Source of the DNA: an uncultured bacterium
GTDB taxonomy: Bacteria > Bacteroidota > Rhodothermia > Rhodothermales > UBA10348
Length of the DNA stretch: 64,000 nt
Assembly: GCA_943788505.1 (NCBI GenBank)
Contig: CALSQR010000001.1
Location: 1,116,001 to 1,180,000, forward strand
Direction of reading: 5' to 3'
Part shown: positions 1,940-21,462 of the stretch, in pieces
Layout: every line of letters begins with the position of its first letter
Numbering within the stretch: the first letter of the stretch is position 1
Notes under the pieces: model-generated
The model's input: only the letters and a program-made list of their open reading frames with translations
The model's database searches: none
What the model was told of the DNA's origin: nothing
Made by a program: the position numbers and the translations under genes

Positions 1940-3262
1940 CTACTCCCCGCGAATCGCATCGAGCCGCTCGCGGACCGTATCTGATGATGTCTGGCCTGGG
2001 TTTCCATGCGTTGTATAAACGTCTGAAACGGGACGATCCGACTGCTCTTCCCATAGGTCATCACGACCGGCAACGTCTCGATACGCGGTCCGGAATGCAT
2101 CACCCCCTGCAACCCTCTCCATGGCTGCAGCCGTGGCAAACAGATCACTGGATCGGGCTTTTTCTATTCCTTCAGCATGGAAGGAAAGTCCGTTGACCAG
2201 CCCTGTAGCTGCCTGGGATAGATCTAACATCAGCAACACCGACTTCATGACGGATGCTTTCGTGATTTGTAGATCGCGGTGGTAGCCCGATGGAAGGTTG
2301 GCCGGAACGCCAAGCAAGACATGCATCTCCGCTGCAATACGGTGGAGCGAAGCCCGGGCCAACTCGGCGATGTCAGGGTTCTTTTTTTGCGGCATGATAC
2401 TGCTACCCGTCGTTAGTCCATCAGCCAAACGGACGAAGTCAAACTCTGAGGTGCTGTACAAGATGATATCAGACGCAAGGCGATTAATCGTCGCAGCCGC
2501 TTGAACGAGGGCGTGAACTGCTGCCAGTTCAAACTTTCCTCGACTTAATTGAACGGAGGTGACATTTTCTTGCACCCGCTCGAATCCCAGGTCCTCGGCG
2601 AGGGCCTCCCGATCAAGGTTTAGGTATGGGACGCCATAGCCGGCCGCGCTCCCGAGTGGCGATGCATTATTGAGATCCCGGGCCTGCGCCAGAATGCTCA
2701 TATCATCACAGAGCATCTCCGCATATCCCAGTGCCCATGCCGCTACGGTCGATGGCATCGCACGCTGCATGTGGGTGTAGCCAGGAAGAAACGTCTCCCG
2801 GTTGTCATCGGCTACGTCGGCCAGCGCCTCAGCCAAATCAGCCAAAGCAAAGGTGGTCTCATCGAGATGAGCTCTGAGCCAGAGGCGAAGGGCCACGATC
2901 ACCTGATCATTGCGCGAGCGACCTGTATGGATCTTCCGACCTGCTTCCGGGCTTTTTTCTGTCAGCAGTCGTTCGATAACGGTATGGCAATCTTCATCCT
3001 CCACCGTTACTACGACGTCGCCGCGTTCCCATGCCTGACCAATCTCTTGTAATCCTGCGGCCAGTTCATCGAGCTCATCTTCGGTGATGACACCAGCATT
3101 CATTAGCCCTGCGGCATGCGCCAGCGATGCCGCGGCATCGAAGGGTAATAGCATTTGATCCCAGAGAGGATCATCACCGACGGTAAAACGAGTGACCCAG
3201 TCCTGTGCGACAGGTCCCCCTGATCCCTTGTGCCAGATGGGGTTACTTCTTGAATCAGACAT
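1940..3262 (-). CDS. argH: Argininosuccinate lyase
   Basis: This is the last enzyme of arginine synthesis: it splits argininosuccinate into arginine and fumarate in the cytoplasm. The 440-residue protein has the family motifs HTGRSRNDQ (about 112-120), YTHMQ (about 162) and the fumarase/lyase signature GSSIMPQKKNP (about 286-296). A longer reading frame runs up to 3379. The ATG at 3262 is preferred because it gives a normal N-terminus (MSDSRSNPIW) and overlaps the argE stop by 8 bases (3255-3262), which suggests translational coupling. It is the last gene of the minus-strand arginine operon. No clear terminator is visible downstream, only the 10-bp repeat array. Confidence 0.95.
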   Translation of the reverse strand: MSDSRSNPIWHKGSGGPVAQDWVTRFTVGDDPLWDQMLLPFDAAASLAHAAGLMNAGVITEDELDELAAGLQEIGQAWERGDVVVTVEDEDCHTVIERLLTEKSPEAGRKIHTGRSRNDQVIVALRLWLRAHLDETTFALADLAEALADVADDNRETFLPGYTHMQRAMPSTVAAWALGYAEMLCDDMSILAQARDLNNASPLGSAAGYGVPYLNLDREALAEDLGFERVQENVTSVQLSRGKFELAAVHALVQAAATINRLASDIILYSTSEFDFVRLADGLTTGSSIMPQKKNPDIAELARASLHRIAAEMHVLLGVPANLPSGYHRDLQITKASVMKSVLLMLDLSQAATGLVNGLSFHAEGIEKARSSDLFATAAAMERVAGGDAFRTAYRDVAGRDDLWEEQSDRPVSDVYTTHGNPGQTSSDTVRERLDAIRGE

Positions 3263-4388
3263 GATTTTCTTGAAAATAAGCGGTGATGATAGCCTCGTAG
3301 AGGGCACAACTATCGTGCAACTCACGGGCTGAAATATGCTCTTTTGCCGTGTGAGACAAGCGGCTGTCCCCAGGACCAATCTTTACGGTCGGCAGATCCT
3401 TGACATGGATCCAGTCCGACATCGTAGGGGATCCGAACGCTTCGCTACCTGAATGACCTTTCAGGCACGCCCGAACGATAGCCGAGTCGAAAGCCGTCTC
3501 GGTAGGAACGAATCGACCTGAGTGAATGACCACATCAGATTCGAGGTGCTCGTCGAGCATCCCTGCAATCTCATCATGCGTATACGACGGCGTGGACCGG
3601 ATGTCGATCCATGAAGAGCACCGATCTGGTATCACATTGCGAGCGGTCCCCCCTTCGATCACGGTAACTGAATGAGTCGTTTCTCCTAGGAAAGGGTGAA
3701 CCCGATCAAACGTCCAGGATTCTAGTCGGGTGAGGTCACGCACCATTTTTGAGATCGCGTTATCCCCTTCCGATGCCCTTGCGGCGTGGGCAGAGCATCC
3801 CTTGGCGTCCAAACGGAGAATCAATAGTCCTTTCTGTGCCACACACGGCTGCATGTGAGTCGGTTCGCCGACCAACACCGCATCCATGCGTGGTAAATCT
3901 GGCAAGATGGCCTCAAGGCCGTTGTCCTGTCCGCCTGTCTCCTCGCAAATAGTAAATGCACCCATCAACCGGGTGCCGGGCGCGAGTGAGCCCGAGGCGT
4001 GCAGGCGACAAATAGCGCTGGCCATAGAAGCTACGCAGCCTTTTGCATCGACGCTGCCGCGCCCATAGATCAGGCCACCTTCGAGCGTTGGCTCAAACGC
4101 AGGAAAGGGATGATCTGCAGATGGTGGCACCACATCGAGATGCGAATTCAGAAGAAGCGTACGCGGATCAGCGTTTGAGTCCGAAGGCCCATCGACCGTC
4201 ACCAAAACGTTGTTACCCATCCGGACCGGGGTCAATCCGTTCAACACGAAATAACGCTCTAGAAAATCAGCTGCTTCCTCTTCCTCGTGGCTTAGTGAAG
4301 GAATCTCAACAAGGTCCCGGTGTAATCCAAGCACGTCGGAGGTCGCAAGGTCCCCTTCTAGTCCATCGTATATGGTCATTTCATTCAT
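3255..4388 (-). CDS. argE: M20-family N-acyl-ornithine/citrulline deacylase
   Basis: A zinc metallopeptidase of the ArgE/DapE/CPG2 family, 377 residues. Metal-ligand motifs are visible: H83-L-D85, D114 within GSVDAKG, and the E149-E150 pair in ICEETGG. Next to an argF'-type transcarbamylase it most likely removes the acyl group from N-acylcitrulline rather than from N-acylornithine. That substrate is inferred from context and cannot be read from the sequence. It starts 9 bases after the argB stop and overlaps argH by 8 bases. Confidence 0.88.
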   Translation of the reverse strand: MNEMTIYDGLEGDLATSDVLGLHRDLVEIPSLSHEEEEAADFLERYFVLNGLTPVRMGNNVLVTVDGPSDSNADPRTLLLNSHLDVVPPSADHPFPAFEPTLEGGLIYGRGSVDAKGCVASMASAICRLHASGSLAPGTRLMGAFTICEETGGQDNGLEAILPDLPRMDAVLVGEPTHMQPCVAQKGLLILRLDAKGCSAHAARASEGDNAISKMVRDLTRLESWTFDRVHPFLGETTHSVTVIEGGTARNVIPDRCSSWIDIRSTPSYTHDEIAGMLDEHLESDVVIHSGRFVPTETAFDSAIVRACLKGHSGSEAFGSPTMSDWIHVKDLPTVKIGPGDSRLSHTAKEHISARELHDSCALYEAIITAYFQENHV

Positions 4389-4397
4389 GCGATCGGG

Positions 4398-5177
4398 CTA
4401 CTTTAGAGGTGTTGAGAGAAGGCGTGTCGCACCAGAACGGTCGTTGATCGAGGTCAGGTCGGCTATCCAAACAGACTTGACGCCTTTATCAAGCGCTTTA
4501 AAGCCAATATCCGTCTTCACTTTCATCCCTCCGGCTATCCACCCCTCGTCTACGGCCCGATCGGCGGTTACACGATCTAGACGCTTCAAAAGCTGACCTT
4601 CGCGGTCGAGAACCCCACCCGAGCCAGTCAAAAGTAGAAGTTCTTCTGCGCCAAGAGCGAGCGCAATCTCCAGTGCTATGGTGTCAGCATTTATGTTGAA
4701 CAGGTCGCCTGATCGGTCAACACCCGGTGGGCAAAGAACGGGCACAACTCCTGCTTGAAGCAGCGCTGAAATGACAGTTGTGTCAGCTACTTCTGCATCC
4801 CCGACTTCACCAAAATCGACGTGCTCTCCGTCTACTGTCCAAGGCGGCCTACGTTGAACTGAAAGCGTTCCACCATCTGCTCCGCTAAGCCCGACGGCAC
4901 GAACTCCCACAGCGTGCGCTGCAGCCGTCAACTTTAGGTTTAATTCTCCTCGGATCACCCATTTCAGAATGTCCAAATCAAGAGGTGTTGTCACACGCCG
5001 TCCATGTACGATGGTAGGTGTATGTCCTAGTCGTTCGGCAAGCGCTGTCGTCTGCGGACCACCACCGTGAACAAGCACAACATCGGATGATGACTGCAAA
5101 CGCTCCACTTCCTGCCAAAAAGGCTGAAGGTCTCCATCTAGCAGGGCTCCACCTAACTTGATCACGGTCCGTTTCAT
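4398..5177 (-). CDS. argB: N-acetylglutamate kinase (amino-acid kinase family)
   Basis: It phosphorylates the gamma-carboxyl of N-acylglutamate, the second step of arginine synthesis. The 259-residue protein begins with the amino-acid-kinase signature KLGGALL (7-13) and has the substrate loop HGGGP near residue 38. The length matches the family (about 250-300). It lacks the long N-terminal helix associated with arginine-feedback-inhibited hexameric forms, so simple feedback inhibition by arginine is not suggested. The start overlaps the argF' stop by 4 bases (ATGA, 5174-5177). Confidence 0.9.
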   Translation of the reverse strand: MKRTVIKLGGALLDGDLQPFWQEVERLQSSSDVVLVHGGGPQTTALAERLGHTPTIVHGRRVTTPLDLDILKWVIRGELNLKLTAAAHAVGVRAVGLSGADGGTLSVQRRPPWTVDGEHVDFGEVGDAEVADTTVISALLQAGVVPVLCPPGVDRSGDLFNINADTIALEIALALGAEELLLLTGSGGVLDREGQLLKRLDRVTADRAVDEGWIAGGMKVKTDIGFKALDKGVKSVWIADLTSINDRSGATRLLSTPLK

Positions 5178-6226
5178 CTACCATCCCCGGCCGATTCTCC
5201 GTCTCGGAGGTTTCTATCCCGCAACAGCCAGTCAAGAATGGCCTTTTGAGCGTGCAATCGAAATTCCGCCTGATCAAGATGCAGGGAGGATTCGCCATCG
5301 AGCACGGCATCATCGACCACAACACCTCGTCTGACCGGGAGGCAATGCATGAACTGCCCCCCGTCCGTGAGCTGCATCGTCTCTGATGTGATGCGCCAAT
5401 CGGATTTTGATAAACGAAGATCGGCTTCTGACTCAGGGTCATCATATCTCCCGAATCCTCCCCATGCCTTCGCATAAATGACATGCGCGCCGTCAGCGGC
5501 GGCATTCTGGTCATCTGTTTCGCTGAAGCTGCCGCCCGCGGTCGTCGCCTGACGGCGCGCAGCATCGATCACGGATTCATCAAGTTCAAACCCATCGGGA
5601 CGAGCCAGCACGACATCCATTCCGAGCCGGGTTGCCATCAACAGCGTCGAATTGGGAACGGCCATGGGTAAAGGCTTCGGATGAGGCGCCCAACTCAAAA
5701 CAAACTTCTTGCCAGCCAGGTCTTCACCTTCACCAAAATGACGATGCAAAACCGTGGCATCTGCTAAGGCCTGACAGGGATGACGAGAGGCAGACTCTAG
5801 GTTGATCACTGGTACGGTAGATGATGCAGCAAATCGTGTGAGCAGAGCGTCTGAAACGTCGGCAGTTCGATCCGTACCCGAGGCAAATAAACGAACACCC
5901 AATACATGGCAATATCGGGACATAACCCCGACTGCTTCCCTGATGTGCTCCGCTTCATCGCCATTCATTGGACGGCCCTCATCCCATGCGAATCCCCATG
6001 TCCCGCTTCCAGGCGTCACCGTAACGGATCGTACACCCAACTCCGATGCAGCCAACTCCATCGACACGCGAGTTCGCAGCGAATCGTTGAAAAATACCAT
6101 GCCAAGCGCTGATCCGTCATGGCGGCCCCACGCCCGATCCCTCTCTTCTCCAAATGCCAATGCCTCCAGAATACATGCCTTCCAATCATCCTCCTCTACG
6201 TCGAGCCAGTCCAATAGATGGGTCAT
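5174..6226 (-). CDS. argF': N-acylornithine carbamoyltransferase (acetyl or succinyl)
   Basis: A transcarbamylase of 350 residues that transfers a carbamoyl group to an N-acylated ornithine. Visible motifs are the carbamoyl-phosphate loop NDSLRTR (47-53), HPCQ (149-152), WAPHPKPLP (179-187) and HCLPVRR (294-300). From memory, the WAPHP and HCLPVRR segments resemble the Bacteroides succinylornithine enzyme more than the Xanthomonas acetylornithine enzyme. The single loop position that distinguishes these two enzymes (Glu versus Pro) appears to be Ala80 here, so the acyl group cannot be assigned. It overlaps argD and argB by 4 bases each. Confidence 0.88.
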   Translation of the reverse strand: MTHLLDWLDVEEDDWKACILEALAFGEERDRAWGRHDGSALGMVFFNDSLRTRVSMELAASELGVRSVTVTPGSGTWGFAWDEGRPMNGDEAEHIREAVGVMSRYCHVLGVRLFASGTDRTADVSDALLTRFAASSTVPVINLESASRHPCQALADATVLHRHFGEGEDLAGKKFVLSWAPHPKPLPMAVPNSTLLMATRLGMDVVLARPDGFELDESVIDAARRQATTAGGSFSETDDQNAAADGAHVIYAKAWGGFGRYDDPESEADLRLSKSDWRITSETMQLTDGGQFMHCLPVRRGVVVDDAVLDGESSLHLDQAEFRLHAQKAILDWLLRDRNLRDGESAGDGR

Positions 6227-7416
6227 GCTACAACCTGTTCCATGACGAGGTCCAGGGCCTTAAAAAAGCCACTGATCTGTTCGTCGGAGACAACAGCTGG
6301 TGGCATGAGCCGCATGATGTTCGGATTGGCTGAGCCACCCGTAAGGATTCCCTCAGCGCGAAGTGCAGCGACAATGGGACCAACAGGTTGACCGAAATCT
6401 ATGCCCATCAGGCAGCCGGCTCCCTGGCATCGAAGCCCTCGCTGAACACATCCTTTTTCGAGTGCATCCCAAATCGCTAAAGCACGCTCTGAAAGGTGCT
6501 CTTCTTCAACTACCTGTAAGGCTGCATCAACGGCAGCCATAGCCAACATGCCACCGCCAAACGTGGTCCCTTGCTCCCCAGGATGCACCGTTGCTGCAAC
6601 TTCATCGCGTACGAGCACTGCGGCCACCGGTACTCCGCCGCCAAGGCTCTTTGCCAGTGTTATCATATCCGGCTTGATGCCCAACAGATCGGCATAGGTG
6701 AACGCTCCGGTGCGCCCTACGCCGGTCTGGACTTCATCCATGATGAACATGGCGCCGGTTTCACGGCAAGCAGATTCCAGCGCTTGGAAATATTCCACAG
6801 AGGCTGTCTTCATGCCGGACATGGACTGAATGGGCTCCACGATCACAGCGGCTGGTTTCTGCTCTAGAATTACCTTGCGCGCCTGCTCGGCATCGTCAAA
6901 AGGAACGAAGGTCACTGGACCGAAGGACTCTTCGTACCCAGAGCGATACTTACCCTCCCATGTGGCGGCAAGGCTCCCAAGCGTACGACCATGGAAATCC
7001 CCTTCCACGGCAACAATATTTGTTCGCCCGGTTGCCTTTCGGGCGATTTTCATCGCCACCTCATTTGCCTCCGTACCAGTACTTACAAAGAAGACAGTGT
7101 CCATCCCATCAGGAGCAAGACGCGCTAGCCGCTCTGATGCCTTTGCGCGTGCTGGAGAGTAGACCGCATTCGAATAAAACAGGATTTCATCTGCCTGTTG
7201 TTTAATGGCCGCCACCACTTTGGGGTGATTATGCCCCAAAAAAGCCACGCAATGGCCGCCGTACAGATCCAGATAGGTCCGTCCATCGGTGTCTGTCACC
7301 ATGGCGCCTTTCGCGCCTACAAGCGCGATCGGCCACTTGTTGTAGGTACCGAGCTGAGACCTGTTTTCCAGCTCCATCCATTCGGTAGTTGTCATGGTCG
7401 TAGGTGAGGATGTCAT
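6223..7416 (-). CDS. argD: Acetylornithine (N-acylornithine) aminotransferase, class III
   Basis: A PLP-dependent aminotransferase that converts N-acylglutamate semialdehyde to N-acylornithine. It has the class-III features GTEANEVAMKIAR, the DEVQTGVGRTG segment and the PLP-lysine motif TLAKSLGGG. The open frame extends to 7530, but residues before MTSSPTT are hydrophobic and lie partly inside argC, so the ATG at 7416 is preferred; 7395 (MTTTEWMELEN) is equally possible. This gives about 397 residues, normal for ArgD. The stop overlaps the argF' start (ATGA). Confidence 0.93.
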   Translation of the reverse strand: MTSSPTTMTTTEWMELENRSQLGTYNKWPIALVGAKGAMVTDTDGRTYLDLYGGHCVAFLGHNHPKVVAAIKQQADEILFYSNAVYSPARAKASERLARLAPDGMDTVFFVSTGTEANEVAMKIARKATGRTNIVAVEGDFHGRTLGSLAATWEGKYRSGYEESFGPVTFVPFDDAEQARKVILEQKPAAVIVEPIQSMSGMKTASVEYFQALESACRETGAMFIMDEVQTGVGRTGAFTYADLLGIKPDMITLAKSLGGGVPVAAVLVRDEVAATVHPGEQGTTFGGGMLAMAAVDAALQVVEEEHLSERALAIWDALEKGCVQRGLRCQGAGCLMGIDFGQPVGPIVAALRAEGILTGGSANPNIMRLMPPAVVSDEQISGFFKALDLVMEQVVA

Positions 7417-7471
7417 GTGAAAGAAAGTCGTGGAATAAATGACAAGGATGATCAAGAGATCCGCAATAGCA

Positions 7472-8509
7472 TTAACTAGTGGGAGCAGTTGCCGGATGAG
7501 CCACCAGACCATCCGTGTCTGACCAGCCAAAGGCTAAATTCATATTCTGAATTGCCTGAGAGGCCGCCCCCTTCATAAGGTTATCAATGGCGAAACCGAC
7601 TACTACATTGCGCCCCATGATCGTCCAACCTAGATCGGTGAACGGGGATCGGACGCTCCAGAGTAGCTCTGGCAACCGGCCCGGCCACAGACGGATCAAT
7701 GGCTTATCTGCATAGGCCGCTTCAAATTTTGCCGCCAAGGAAGCCGCAGCTTCCTCTGACTTAAATCGTACCTGAGCCGTACCCCAGATCCCTGCGGTCC
7801 ATGGACCGGAGACGGGGACGAAGGAAAAATCGACACCCTTAGCCATCATGCGAATTTCAGCTTCGTGCTGATGACGGAAAACCTTATACGCTCGCACATT
7901 TGCATCCCGATCGGGAAAGTGAGTCGTTGCCGAAGGGCGCGCGCCTGATCCGGAAGCGCCCGTTAACGCTGTCACCGAAACTGGGCCGGCTAGGGCGCTT
8001 TCCGAGGTTCCTCCAGCCGCCGACAAGGGAAAGAGCGCGAGGGAAATGGCAGTCGCAAAACAACCCGCATTGGCAATCAATGTGGTGCCAGGTGGCGGAG
8101 GACCAGTTAATTCAGGCATCCCGTACCAGGCATTTTCAAGAAGATCTGTGCGAGGATGATCGATACCATAGCGTTGCTTGTAGGTAGCCGCATCAGACAA
8201 TCTGAAGTCTGCGCTCATATCCACGATCAAGCCCTCATATCCTTTATCCCGCAATTGCCCAGCGGCAGCAGCTCCTTCACCGTGACCGGCAGCTACAAAT
8301 ACGACATCCAAGTCGGCGTAACTCGGCAATACTGCGTCGAATGCCAGCGAGCATCTCCCTGCCAATCCAGGGTGGGCATCGTGAACCGGCTTACCCGCAA
8401 AAGAGCGGCTGGTCGCGGACACAAGTTCCAGACCAGGGTGCTCCAGGACACGTTCTAGTAGAGACCGACCTACATAGCCGGCTGCGTGCAATACAGCGGT
8501 GCGTTTCAT
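7472..8509 (-). CDS. argC: N-acetyl-gamma-glutamyl-phosphate reductase
   Basis: A NADPH-dependent reductase of 345 residues making N-acylglutamate semialdehyde. The catalytic cysteine is C150 in NAGCFAT. The N-terminal dinucleotide motif reads HAAGYVG (8-14), where the usual form is GASGYTG, so the first glycine is replaced by histidine. The rest of the protein is typical. The start overlaps the upstream P-loop gene by 4 bases (8506-8509), so translation is probably coupled. Confidence 0.93.
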   Translation of the reverse strand: MKRTAVLHAAGYVGRSLLERVLEHPGLELVSATSRSFAGKPVHDAHPGLAGRCSLAFDAVLPSYADLDVVFVAAGHGEGAAAAGQLRDKGYEGLIVDMSADFRLSDAATYKQRYGIDHPRTDLLENAWYGMPELTGPPPPGTTLIANAGCFATAISLALFPLSAAGGTSESALAGPVSVTALTGASGSGARPSATTHFPDRDANVRAYKVFRHQHEAEIRMMAKGVDFSFVPVSGPWTAGIWGTAQVRFKSEEAAASLAAKFEAAYADKPLIRLWPGRLPELLWSVRSPFTDLGWTIMGRNVVVGFAIDNLMKGAASQAIQNMNLAFGWSDTDGLVAHPATAPTS

Positions 8510-9567
8510 GCGCTCGTTGCGGGCTTTTTCGGTGCGGTAAGTTTCGAGGCAACCCGATCGCCAAGGGCATTTGGGTCCTCACGGGCATTAATCGCAGTAA
8601 TACCCATTACTTGCTCAATGTACTGCTTCCCAACCCCGTTGTCCGTGACAGGTCCGGTGACAACTGTAATCTCTGCATGATAACGGTCCTTGAACAACTG
8701 CTGAGCAGCCCAGACCCCTGCCAAATCCACGGCGGCAACAATATGAGCGACGCAAAATTTCTGTAATTCCTTGTCCTGCAACAACTCATCGACACCGTAA
8801 TATCCAATGATCCCATCTCCAAGCTCGATTACGATTACATCAGGATCAGCTGTCTCGCTAAGGTGATGGATGAGGCCCTTCACGTAGGGCGCCATGGCTT
8901 TTGATGTCGAGCAAACGACACCGGCATCCGTAAAGGTTGCTGTAGCAATCGCTCCGTGACCTTCAATGAGGCGAACATCTCGCATCAAGCTAGCACCCGT
9001 CGCTTTGGCGGCAGCCACCCGGTACCCTTTGCGGGTTAAACGCTGAACAAGCTCACACGCAGCCCAGGTTTTGCCGGTATTCATTGCCGTACCCGAAATA
9101 AAGATCAGCTGTGCCGACTTCGTAAGGGAATCGACTTCGTGGAGCGCGTGATCCTGAAGGCGTGCATGGACCCACATTCCATCTTTTTCGACCATGGCTG
9201 CCCCAAGAACCTTCACTTTGAGTGCCGGGCCTAGGTCGGGATGATCACTAACGCAGGTCCCAATGATTCCGCCCATGTTCAACACATTGAGCGTATCCCC
9301 AGGAAGAATAGCGCGAGGTACCACACCAGAGTATCCCTTCAGGGCGCGGCGTTCACCAAGGACTCCAACAAAGACATCTCCTTTAGAGATTGTTCGGAAT
9401 TCTCCGTCAATGCACTCGATCTGATTATAGATCGCCTTTGATTCAAGGGCTTCAACAACAACACAATAGCCTTCCTGAGCTACCACATAGTCTGACAGCG
9501 AAGCATCCCGAACGAGGCCTGTTTTCGAGGCCGTAGAGGACACATACGTTACTTCTATCTTCTTCAT
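8506..9567 (-). CDS. Uncharacterised P-loop protein of the arginine operon (BioD/DUF1611-like)
   Basis: A 353-residue protein without a name I recognise. Residues 1-150 form a beta-rich, glycine-containing domain. Residues 152-345 form a P-loop domain with Walker A GTAMNTGKT (159-167), resembling the GTDTxVGKT loop of dethiobiotin synthetase. It also has a conserved-looking KATGASLMRD stretch (188-197) and DVIVIELGDG (243-252). Total length and P-loop position resemble DUF1611 proteins, one of which (DgcN) is reported to N-acetylate D-glutamate. It overlaps argG by 4 bases upstream and argC by 4 bases downstream, so it is made with the arginine enzymes. No argA, argJ or GNAT gene is in this operon, so a role in glutamate acylation is possible but unproven. 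A regulatory or amide-ligase role is also possible. Confidence 0.6.
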   Translation of the reverse strand: MKKIEVTYVSSTASKTGLVRDASLSDYVVAQEGYCVVVEALESKAIYNQIECIDGEFRTISKGDVFVGVLGERRALKGYSGVVPRAILPGDTLNVLNMGGIIGTCVSDHPDLGPALKVKVLGAAMVEKDGMWVHARLQDHALHEVDSLTKSAQLIFISGTAMNTGKTWAACELVQRLTRKGYRVAAAKATGASLMRDVRLIEGHGAIATATFTDAGVVCSTSKAMAPYVKGLIHHLSETADPDVIVIELGDGIIGYYGVDELLQDKELQKFCVAHIVAAVDLAGVWAAQQLFKDRYHAEITVVTGPVTDNGVGKQYIEQVMGITAINAREDPNALGDRVASKLTAPKKPATSA

Positions 9568-10799
9568 TTGTCCGTTGGGTTCTGGGAGTGAGCGGCACGT
9601 ACCCGATTAGTTAACAGAGACTGGACTCCAAGAATGCGAGCAAATCCTCTGGCATCGCGGCCATCCCAAAGATCATTTGATTCGCCGTACGTGGCGACCT
9701 TAGCATCGAACATCGAAAATGGGCTCGTACACCCTTCTACTAGCACATTTCCTTTAAACAAGGAAATTGTAACCTGGCCAGTTACAGTTTCCTGAGAGGA
9801 ATCGAGCAGCGCCTCAATATCGCGCATGACGGGATCGAAATACTGGGCTTCATGAACCATCATACCGTAGAAATCCCCAAGCTGCGCCTTGTGATACTGC
9901 TGCCAGCGCGACAGTACAATTTTTTCTAGCTCGCGATGAGCCGGAATCAGAATGGTAGCTGCAGGCGCTTGGAATCCCACCCGCCCTTTGATTCCTAGAA
10001 TCGTATCGCCAACATGAATGGCCCGCCCAATACCATGATCGGCACCAAGCTCGTTCAAGCGTTCTATCAAGTCCACAGGCGAGAGATGCTCCCCGTCGAG
10101 TGAGGTTGGAACGCCGTTGGTAAAACCAATGGAGAGAGTCACACCGTTGTCGGGTGCCTGCGCAGGAGAAGGGGTCGGCCACGCTTCGTCAGGAAGTGGA
10201 TCAGACGTTCCAAGGGTTTCCTTTCCTCCCACCGTAACGCCCCATAATCCGGTATTGATGGAATAGGTCGTAGTGGAATCTGACACCGAATACCCGCGGT
10301 CACGAAGCCAGCCAGATGTATATGCTCGGCTCAAGTTTCCGTCGCGGATAGGCGTCAGGATCTCGAGGTCATCTCCCAAAACCGCCAATGCAATGTCAAA
10401 ACGGATTTGATCGTTGCCTGCCCCAGTTGAGCCGTGTGCCACGGTGGATACGCCCAGCTCTCGCGCTTTCTCTACCAAGACCTGCGCCTGAACGACACGA
10501 TCGGGGCCTACACACAGAGGATACAGATCGCCTCGTAGTACATTACCCTTGATAAGAAACTGAATGGAACGCTGGAAAAGCGCGTCGCGTGCATCGATCA
10601 TTTGATGACTGACAGATCCCAATTCTTTGGCGCGCGCTGCAATGATATCGCACTCCTCATCGGAAATGCCTCCGGTATTGACCGTGACCGTGTGGACATC
10701 GCAACCGTGTTGTTCACGTAAGAACGGCACACAGAATGACGTATCAAGTCCACCACTGAAGGCAACGACGATGGACTCTATAGAAGAAGATGAAGGCAT
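9564..10799 (-). CDS. argG: Argininosuccinate synthase
   Basis: It joins citrulline and aspartate with ATP hydrolysis to AMP and PPi. The 411-residue protein opens with the N-type ATP-pyrophosphatase loop AFSGGLDTSF and contains the family segments STVAHGSTGAGNDQIRF and GRVGFQAPA. The length matches ArgG. It is the first enzyme gene of the arginine operon, about 130 bases after the stop of an arginine-rich leader ORF and 60 bases after an intrinsic terminator. This suggests control by attenuation. Confidence 0.95.
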   Translation of the reverse strand: MPSSSSIESIVVAFSGGLDTSFCVPFLREQHGCDVHTVTVNTGGISDEECDIIAARAKELGSVSHQMIDARDALFQRSIQFLIKGNVLRGDLYPLCVGPDRVVQAQVLVEKARELGVSTVAHGSTGAGNDQIRFDIALAVLGDDLEILTPIRDGNLSRAYTSGWLRDRGYSVSDSTTTYSINTGLWGVTVGGKETLGTSDPLPDEAWPTPSPAQAPDNGVTLSIGFTNGVPTSLDGEHLSPVDLIERLNELGADHGIGRAIHVGDTILGIKGRVGFQAPAATILIPAHRELEKIVLSRWQQYHKAQLGDFYGMMVHEAQYFDPVMRDIEALLDSSQETVTGQVTISLFKGNVLVEGCTSPFSMFDAKVATYGESNDLWDGRDARGFARILGVQSLLTNRVRAAHSQNPTDK

Positions 10800-10859: not shown

Positions 10860-10891
10860 AAAAAAAGCGTCGATCCTGTACGGACCGACGC
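10860..10891 (-). terminator. Intrinsic terminator / attenuator of the arginine operon
   Basis: On the minus strand a 10-bp stem (arms GCGTCGGTCC and GGATCGACGC, with one G-T pair) closes a GTACA loop and is followed directly by seven T. It lies between the arginine leader ORF and argG. Part of its 5' arm and loop (GGTCCGTAC) can instead pair with GTACGGTCC at the end of the leader ORF, giving a competing antiterminator. Confidence 0.8.
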
Positions 10892-10926
10892 AAACGAACG
10901 CAAAAGCTTTTCAATCAGCTTTCTTG

Positions 10927-11022
10927 TCACGCACGCGTGCACGGACCGTACTCCAATCGGAGCATGGTTCGGACTCGTCGCGAGTGACGGGTATCTGGCG
11001 CTTTGAACGTGCTGATTGACAT
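10927..11022 (-). CDS. Arginine-rich leader peptide of the arg operon (31 aa)
   Basis: An ORF too short for usual gene calling: ATG at 11022, TGA at 10927-10929, 31 residues. Arginine is at positions 12, 15, 16, 18, 22 and 30, with the cluster RHSRRVRTMLR at 12-22. Its last codons (Glu-Tyr-Gly-Pro) contain GTACGGTCC, which can pair with GGTCCGTAC in the terminator at 10860-10891. A ribosome stalled at the Arg cluster would leave that segment free to form the antiterminator. A ribosome reaching the stop would cover it and let the terminator form. That mechanism is inferred from the classic trp/his/ilv model. There is no Shine-Dalgarno sequence in front. Confidence 0.72.
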   Translation of the reverse strand: MSISTFKAPDTRHSRRVRTMLRLEYGPCTRA

Positions 11023-11030
11023 AGACGTAT

Positions 11031-11060
11031 AAAATAGAAGACGACATGCCTTCAAATCAA
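11031..11060 (-). promoter_or_regulatory. Candidate promoter of the arginine leader
   Basis: TTGATT (11060-11055) and TATTTT (11036-11031) are 18 bases apart just upstream of the leader ORF. This would start transcription almost at the leader ATG. Weak evidence; transcription could also come from padR. Confidence 0.35.
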
Positions 11061-11074
11061 GGCTCTGAGGCTGG

Positions 11075-11410
11075 TCAGGATGAATATTCTTTCAAAGAAG
11101 GCATGTCTTTCCACAGATTCTTTTGGTATTCCTTGGTGCGTTCAAGAATCCGAATACCTTTTGGGGTTAAGCGGTAATACACCCGTGGGCGTCCTCCCTG
11201 CTTTTTCTCTCCTTTAGCCGTCCGCTTCCGTATGTATGCCCGCTCGGCCAGTTGATCCAAGGATACCCACAGACTCCCGACGGTTACTTTTTTCTTTGCT
11301 CTCGAGACCAGTTCCTGTCGGATGGTAGTACTGTATGCATCCTCACCGAGGACCACGATGCATATCAGGAGGATTTCGTCGGCGCGTGAAAGCTGCTTTG
11401 CTGGAGGCAT
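11075..11410 (-). CDS. PadR-family winged-helix transcriptional regulator
   Basis: A small DNA-binding protein of 111 residues. The pattern LSRADEILLICIVVLGEDAYSTTIRQEL at the N-terminus (about 8-35), then VTVGSLWVSLDQLAERAYI and GGRPRVYYRLTPKGIRIL, is typical of the PadR winged helix. The C-terminal dimerisation helix is short. It sits between leuD and the arginine leader on the same strand, so it is well placed to act on one or both operons, but its ligand and target are unknown. An inverted repeat overlapping a -10-like box lies 36 bases upstream and may be its own operator. Confidence 0.85.
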   Translation of the reverse strand: MPPAKQLSRADEILLICIVVLGEDAYSTTIRQELVSRAKKKVTVGSLWVSLDQLAERAYIRKRTAKGEKKQGGRPRVYYRLTPKGIRILERTKEYQKNLWKDMPSLKEYSS

Positions 11411-19734: not shown

Positions 19735-21462
19735 TCAGACAGGATCTACCATGGCCTCGTAGGGCTGCTTCACGACGCCTGGAACGCGGAGAATGGCGCC
19801 GGTCGAGGCGCTGGTGACCATATGAGTGTATCGTTCGAGGTATCCACCTTTGATGCGTGGCTCAAAAGGAGGTAAGGCAGCTAATCGGCGCGCAGCTTCT
19901 TCGGCTTCGACATGCCAATGCACGCTGGATGTCTCAATGTCAAAGGATATCAGATCGCCGTCCTGAACAAGAGCAATAGGTCCACCGGCCGCTGCTTCAG
20001 GCGAACAATGCCCAACACATAGCCCTCGGGTTCCACCAGAGAATCGGCCGTCCGTGATCATGGCAACAGACGTATCGAGTCGCATACCGGCCAGCGCAGA
20101 GGTGGGCTGAAGCATCTCCGGCATTCCGGGTCCTCCACGAGGACCTTCATATCGGATGACTACCACAGATCCGGCCTCAAGAGTCCCGCTCAAAATGCCA
20201 TCGACTGCTTCATCCTGACTTTCGAACACCCGCGCCACGCCGGTAAATTGCATCATGCCTTCAGAGACCGCGCCCGTTTTGACCACGCTCCCCTCCGGTG
20301 CGAGGTTGCCTATCAAGACGCCCAATCCTCCTGTGGCGCGAAACGGATTGTCGGTGGACCGAATAATATCCGGGCGGTGGTTTTTTGCGCCTTTGAAAGT
20401 ATCTCCCATCGGGCGTCCCGTTACCGTTGGACGATCCGGGTGAAGGAGTCCTGCTCGGTTTAGCTCGGCAAGAATAGCGGGAATTCCTCCGGCTTTATCG
20501 ACATCCTCCATGTGGACATCAGGTATAGCTGGAGACACCTTGCATAGGTATGGCACTCGTTCGGACATCTGATTGATGCGATCAAGATCATAGTCTATAC
20601 CAGCTTCATGAGCCGCCGCCAATAGGTGAAGCACCGTATTGGTCGATCCTCCCATGGCCATATCAAGGGCGAAAGCATCGTCGAGAGCTTCCGGTGTAAA
20701 AATGTCCGATGGCTTGATGTCTCCGTCGGCCATCACCACAATGCGACGTGCTGCTTCGCGCGCTAGCTCATGTCGTTTGGGGTCGATGGCCAGAATGGAT
20801 CCGTTTCCTGGAAGCGCCAGGCCAATAACTTCCATAATGCAGTTCATGGAATTAGCGGTAAACATACCAGAACATGAGCCGCACGTTGGGCAGGCAAGGC
20901 GCTCGAGTGCGTCCAGACCTGCATAACCTAATTCCCCTTTACTGTGGCGGCCGACGCCTTCAAACACGGATACGAGGTCAATTTTTGTCCCGTCCTCCAG
21001 CTGGCCCGCTTTCATGGGACCACCGGAAACGAAGATGGTCGGCACGTTGCATCGTAGCGCACCCATCAGCATGCCCGGCACGATTTTATCGCAGTTTGGT
21101 AGGCAGATGATGGCGTCCAAGCAGTGGGCCCGAACAACCGTTTCAACCGAATCGGCGATCAACTCGCGCGATGGAAGCGAAAACCGCATACCCAAGTGGC
21201 CCATAGCGATACCGTCATCCACACCAATCGTATTGAACTCAAAGGGAACGCCACCCGCTTCTCGAACTGCTTCTTTTACGACTCGACCGAATTCCTGAAG
21301 ATGAACGTGACCCGGGATCAGGTCGATATACGAGTTACAGACCCCAATGAAAGGTCTGTCAAAGTCTTCGTCCGACTGGATCACGCCGGTGGCTCTCAAC
21401 AGACTCCGGTGAGGGGCCCGCTGGTAACCTTTGGTGATTGTATCGCTGTTCCGCTTTGCCAT
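19735..21462 (-). CDS. ilvD: Dihydroxy-acid dehydratase
   Basis: An iron-sulfur dehydratase making the 2-oxo acids for valine and isoleucine; 575 residues. Cluster cysteines are seen in [11 protein letters not shown] and [17 protein letters not shown]. The C-terminal [14 protein letters not shown] segment is also typical. It is the first structural gene of the operon. About 85 bases upstream ends a Leu/Val/Ile-rich leader ORF, and the spacer holds competing hairpins that could control its expression. Confidence 0.95.

Follow-up and report, generated by a model that had tools for sequence, protein, structure and literature searches.

The window, that is, the whole stretch of 64,000 nucleotides that was analyzed, carries an arginine operon on its minus strand, and all of the features given below lie on this strand. 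The first gene is argG (argininosuccinate synthase, 9564–10799, TIGR00032), which is followed by a gene for a DUF1611-like P-loop protein (8506–9567, a weak profile match below the cut-off), argC (7472–8509, TIGR01850), a gene for an argD-type acetylornithine transaminase (6223–7530, profile match), argF′ for N-acetylornithine carbamoyltransferase (5174–6226, NF003384) and argB (4398–5177, TIGR00761). An ArgE-like M20 deacetylase gene (3255–4388), probably a member of the operon, and argH (1940–3379), probably its last gene, were assigned from the sequence by eye. On the 5′ side, a PadR-like regulator ORF (11075–11410) directly precedes the leader described here; other genera of the family were likewise seen to have a PadR-like gene 5′ of argG.

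Between these two genes, a leader ORF of 31 codons plus a stop codon (10927–11022; ATG at 11022, TGA at 10929–10927) encodes the peptide MSISTFKAPDTRHSRRVRTMLRLEYGPCTRA, with Arg at codons 12, 15, 16, 18, 22 and 30, five of them inside 11 codons. It is followed by an intrinsic terminator (10891–10860), GCGTCGGTCC GTACA GGATCGACGC, with a stem of 10 bp (−18.0 kcal/mol) and a run of seven T. Four regions can be distinguished in this leader. Region 1 is the Arg-codon cluster (CGT..CGA CGA..CGA..CGA, 10957–10989), which would form the 5′ side of a protector fold, and region 2 is the tail of the ORF (10934–10951). Region 3, the 5′ arm and loop of the terminator (10876–10891), is the alternative partner of region 2, and regions 3 and 4 together make the terminator (10860–10891). 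GTACGGTCC can pair with GGTCCGTAC over 6 bp and, beyond one mismatch, a further 2 bp; for the whole of the 2:3 duplex, the score is −21.1 kcal/mol. The Arg-rich ORF, the terminator stem and the competing pairing, all three of which had been pointed out in the initial annotation of this DNA, were thus found as described. The fold of the 163-nt leader was more stable than those of 200/200 dinucleotide shuffles (z −4.2), and the Arg density of the window ORF, taken alone, was marginal (p about 0.055).

To look at relatives, argG was chosen as the anchor and the DNA upstream of each copy was read, because a similarity search with the leader DNA found the terminator stretch only, and within the genus only. 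Arg leaders were defined as short ORFs that start with ATG and have at least 5 Arg within a stretch of 12 residues. Such a leader was found in 60 of the 86 Rhodothermales argG upstream regions, where 3.9 were expected from shuffles, and 49 of the 86 still had one at a threshold of at least 6 Arg in 12 (0.8 expected from shuffles). Examples are MTTTITSHTLRRRFRRVRSGHRSGYGIRTSAM from the same genus and, read directly, the leader MTRQPTLIAPTTRRRARRVRRLHIASTARPASQASDE of Salinibacter ruber DSM 13855 and the Arg core MQPVRPIRPVRRPRRPRGGGTGASCPVAVW of Rhodothermus marinus DSM 4252. The same arrangement was observed in five further families of the class (f17 to f21), several of them of low GC content. 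Among the outgroups, the threshold of at least 5 Arg was reached in 1/76 named genomes and in 0/20 other genomes of the phylum sample.

The distribution within the class has gaps. The Arg leader was found in 0/30 argG upstream regions of Balneolaceae (L198–L227), and it was not found in most of family f15, in genus g10 of family f1 or in two genera of family f2. The ArgG proteins of Balneolaceae share about 65% identity with ArgG from the phylum's other classes and about 50% with ArgG from Rhodothermales, which suggests that argG may have been replaced in this family. Where the leader is present, little of its sequence can be aligned between families, and the spacing, number and neighbors of its Arg residues differ widely. 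The conserved primary-sequence core is the terminator only, and the in-frame Arg cluster is conserved besides. The argument that the leader exceeds chance expectation is one from this conservation and not from the single window sequence.

A hairpin with a T-run was present between the ORF and argG in all 62 leader-bearing genomes analyzed, and the core of the terminator, GCGCTGGTTCC / GCGCTGATCC, was kept in nearly all leader-bearing relatives. The loop and the inner part of the 5′ arm vary by lineage, and the tail of the ORF varies in step, giving matched pairs of tail and arm such as CATACGGAA with TTCCGTATG, CAGATGG with CCATCTG, and GGAACCGGCGC with GCGCCGGTTCC. This correspondence was quantified by an alignment-free swap test, in which a pairing score was computed for each ORF tail with the terminator 5′ arm and loop of the same genome and, for comparison, with the arms and loops from other genera. 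In 25 genera of the order, own pairs averaged −17.91 and swapped pairs −14.15 kcal/mol; the values were −19.09 and −14.15 kcal/mol for 14 leaders outside the order, and −17.61 and −13.24 kcal/mol (sd 0.54) for 31 representatives, with 0/20,000 permutations in each of the three sets. The control segments, namely the spacer from the stop codon to the terminator and the Arg cluster scored against the arm, gave no gain for own pairs, which makes base composition an unlikely cause. These comparisons indicate that the predicted 2:3 antiterminator pairing is maintained by covariation. When the protector pairing 1:2 (the Arg cluster with its own ORF tail) was treated in the same way, the permutation counts in the order were 103/20000 (25 genera) and 1/20000 (all), and for the 14 leaders outside the order the test gave no support (6494/20000).

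The presence of this terminator bears on how the leader would act. Rho-dependent termination, mRNA decay or masking of the ribosome-binding site is the route taken by both known bacterial leaders with Arg codons (PMC6386406, PMC13009471), and the output here could in principle be one of these in place of intrinsic termination. This is highly unlikely, because the hairpin found in the 62 genomes is strong and has its T-run, and because its 5′ arm and loop covary with the ORF tail.

Furthermore, a clear preference for arginine was observed in the composition of the peptides. Of the 2,125 residues in the leaders of the order, 503 are Arg (24%) and 19 are Lys (<1%); for ordinary genes of the same loci, the R/K ratio is 2.7. 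Among changed codons in the Arg core, to which the count was limited since the ungapped alignment is poor beyond it, 51% of the changes at Arg sites and 17% of those at other sites were synonymous; as the aligned pairs lack independence and Arg has the greater degeneracy, the comparison is to be taken as supporting only. These counts point to arginine and not to charge. The choice of codon was also biased, CGA making up 45% of leader Arg codons vs 11% in ordinary genes, and CGG 6% vs 25%; leaders outside the order favor CGC and CGT. In this respect, the leaders offer a natural setting in which to study which Arg codons signal starvation.

These data also speak to the possibility that the nascent Arg-rich peptide itself is the sensor, arresting the ribosome on binding free arginine or a related metabolite, like the fungal arginine attenuator peptide or SpeFL. 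A peptide is indeed encoded, and its general type is conserved; Arg-rich peptides are able to slow ribosomes (PMC11805395). Nevertheless, the Arg residues change their spacing, number and neighbors widely from family to family, the changes at Arg sites are, within the limits just given, more often synonymous than elsewhere in the core, and an arrest on these codons at high arginine would leave region 2 exposed and activate the operon, which is the wrong sign for a biosynthetic operon. A peptide sensor is therefore considered quite improbable, and sensing of charged tRNA-Arg through the Arg codons is preferred.

The region upstream of the ORF was also informative. In most leaders, a TTGAC/TTGAT box is followed, after 17–18 nt, by a TAnnnT box lying 6–11 nt 5′ of the ATG (8 nt in 15 leaders and 10 nt in 14). 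The window has the promoter-like pair TTGATT-N18-TATTTT (11060–11031), in which the −35 hexamer (11055–11060) matches the TTGA(C/T) box of the leader-bearing genomes and the −10 hexamer (11031–11036) ends 8 nt 5′ of the leader ATG. With this spacing and the usual distance from box to start, the transcript would begin at the ATG or within a few nt of it, and in the window probably within about 2 nt. The promoter spacing implies that the leader mRNA would be leaderless, or nearly so, and translated without a Shine-Dalgarno sequence. This putative proximity of ORF start and transcript start had been missed in the initial annotation; if the mRNA is truly leaderless, attenuation would here be coupled to an initiation that uses no Shine-Dalgarno sequence. 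The promoter geometry likewise weighs against a reading without regulation, in which the upstream gene simply ends in an ordinary terminator and the ORF is there by chance. The PadR-like gene on the same strand and the near-chance Arg density in the window would suit such a reading, but an Arg cluster conserved between families, a promoter just 5′ of the ATG and the specific 2:3 matching leave it a negligible likelihood.

The effect of the ribosome's position was analyzed by folding in silico. At the stage at which region 3 has been made and the 3′ arm has not, the mean probability that region 3 pairs with upstream RNA was 0.74 with a ribosome on the Arg codons and 0.31 with a ribosome at the stop codon, a contrast that had the same direction in 25/25 genera and that partly reflects the larger amount of free upstream RNA in the first case. 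For the complete leader of the window, the antiterminator was the predicted minimum-energy fold when the ribosome was stalled at Arg15/Arg16 (CGA-CGA); the terminator formed in silico with the ribosome at the stop codon, and also with no ribosome. In many relatives, the equilibrium fold favored the terminator even with a stalled ribosome (mean 0.79 vs 0.93 at the stop codon), so that the switch in them must be kinetic. Since equilibrium folding failed to separate the stalled from the finished ribosome in these relatives, weight was given to the swap test and to the sequence in which events would occur.

Because of the Arg cluster, the terminator, the promoter geometry and the way in which region 2 matches region 3 lineage by lineage, we interpret the element as a putative ribosome-mediated transcription attenuator that would sense charged tRNA-Arg and control the arginine operon, with a probability of roughly 0.9. 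In this mechanism, RNA polymerase would begin at the leader ATG or a few nt from it, with the ribosome close behind. When arginine is ample, the ribosome would clear the Arg cluster, reach the stop codon and cover region 2; the 3:4 terminator would then form and transcription would end 5′ of argG. When arginine is low, the ribosome would stall on the CGA-CGA pair and cover region 1, leaving region 2 free to pair with the terminator 5′ arm and loop, so that the terminator would not form and the operon would be transcribed. The layout of ribosome-mediated attenuation had already been recognized in the initial annotation, and the argG upstream regions of relatives bore it out: Arg-codon clusters and covarying stems were kept in close and distant genomes, the pairing segments changing together, and neither a loss of leader and stems among close relatives nor a free replacement of the Arg codons by other residues was encountered.

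Arginine biosynthesis is usually under the control of the ArgR repressor. However, ArgR was not found in the source genome and is missing from nearly the whole class. Matches to PF01316 were obtained in 2/245 class genomes (G036 and G073). The match in G036 was rejected, being the helix-turn-helix of a transposase-like ORF, and the protein of G073, with both domains present, is the only true ArgR in the class sample (1/245). Its gene (L191, 2446–2898) lies directly 5′ of argG, no Arg leader was found there, and two exact TATGCGCATA palindromes were located upstream, where 0.11 were expected. The G073 argG is divergent, with only about 51% identity to the query argG, which is from the same order. 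This single case fits a scenario in which one control took over from the other. It is likely that an arginine-specific attenuator with a nearly leaderless ORF is ancestral to the class and takes the place of ArgR, and that it was displaced in G073 by an ArgR-linked arg operon. Most f15 genomes, genus g10 of f1 and the Balneolaceae have neither the leader nor ArgR. Individual argG loci without an Arg leader in genomes without ArgR include L041, L044, L169, L171 and L174 of f15, as well as L020 and L027.

Textbook attenuation is known for several amino acids, namely from the trp, his, leu, ilv, thr and phe operons in Proteobacteria. The leader described here shares with these classical attenuators a short ORF rich in codons for the end product and, 5′ of the first biosynthetic gene, an antiterminator (2:3) and an intrinsic terminator (3:4) that exclude each other, but it is arginine-specific, it comes from an unrelated class in which ArgR is almost absent, and its ATG would lie almost at the start of the transcript. 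In Actinobacteria, trp and other attenuators have been described, the arginine operons were explicitly reported to have no RNA element, and arginine elsewhere was listed only as T-box regulated (PMC1262725). An Arg-specific T-box, as cited there, is also an RNA leader sensing the charging of tRNA-Arg, but it binds the tRNA directly and has no leader peptide. The ArgR/ARG-box system acts on the same genes and responds to arginine, but through a protein repressor on DNA.

Leaders with Arg codons are known from two other bacterial systems. In the Salmonella speF leader orf34, ribosome pausing without arginine alters RNA folding and raises expression (PMC6386406). Consecutive Arg codons are common to both leaders, two in orf34 and a long cluster here, but orf34 serves a polyamine gene and acts by RNase G decay, access to the ribosome-binding site and Rho termination, with no intrinsic terminator. 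The HIRRT..H core of the SpeFL/orf34 family (PF10940; quoted in PMC6386406) was absent from our leader peptides, as judged by eye. The rbfL leader of Staphylococcus aureus also has an ORF with Arg codons, which senses arginine limitation, but it has two such codons and no terminator, and lowers a biofilm regulator by translational occlusion of the ribosome-binding site (PMC13009471). The initial annotation had named no well-described bacterial Arg attenuator of this kind; this stood for arginine biosynthesis, for which no earlier description was found in the open-licence literature, and needed qualification in that pausing at Arg codons is known from speF and rbfL, in other mechanisms and genes. 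The arginine attenuator is probably new, being classical in form and new in its amino acid and host group.

An Rfam search of the region gave nothing near threshold, and no match to a T-box covariance model was obtained up to E 5. A metabolite-binding riboswitch with an arginine aptamer and an incidental ORF would suit the strong structure of the leader, but with no Rfam match near any threshold, and an in-frame Arg cluster conserved in place of any primary-sequence core beyond the terminator, it is barely tenable beside the attenuator.

A conserved Arg attenuator in a class almost devoid of ArgR would mean that a core pathway is controlled by RNA and ribosome instead. The attenuator is testable in Rhodothermus marinus, for which genetic modification has been reported (PMC5822342). 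Additionally, a 54-codon ORF with an end rich in Leu, Ile and Val was observed elsewhere in the window (21712–21548), 5′ of ilvD at 21462. An inverted repeat that lacks a T-run, GGTCAACCC..GGGTTGACC, comes after it. The ORF has the appearance of a leader for branched-chain amino acids, whose output may be a different one.
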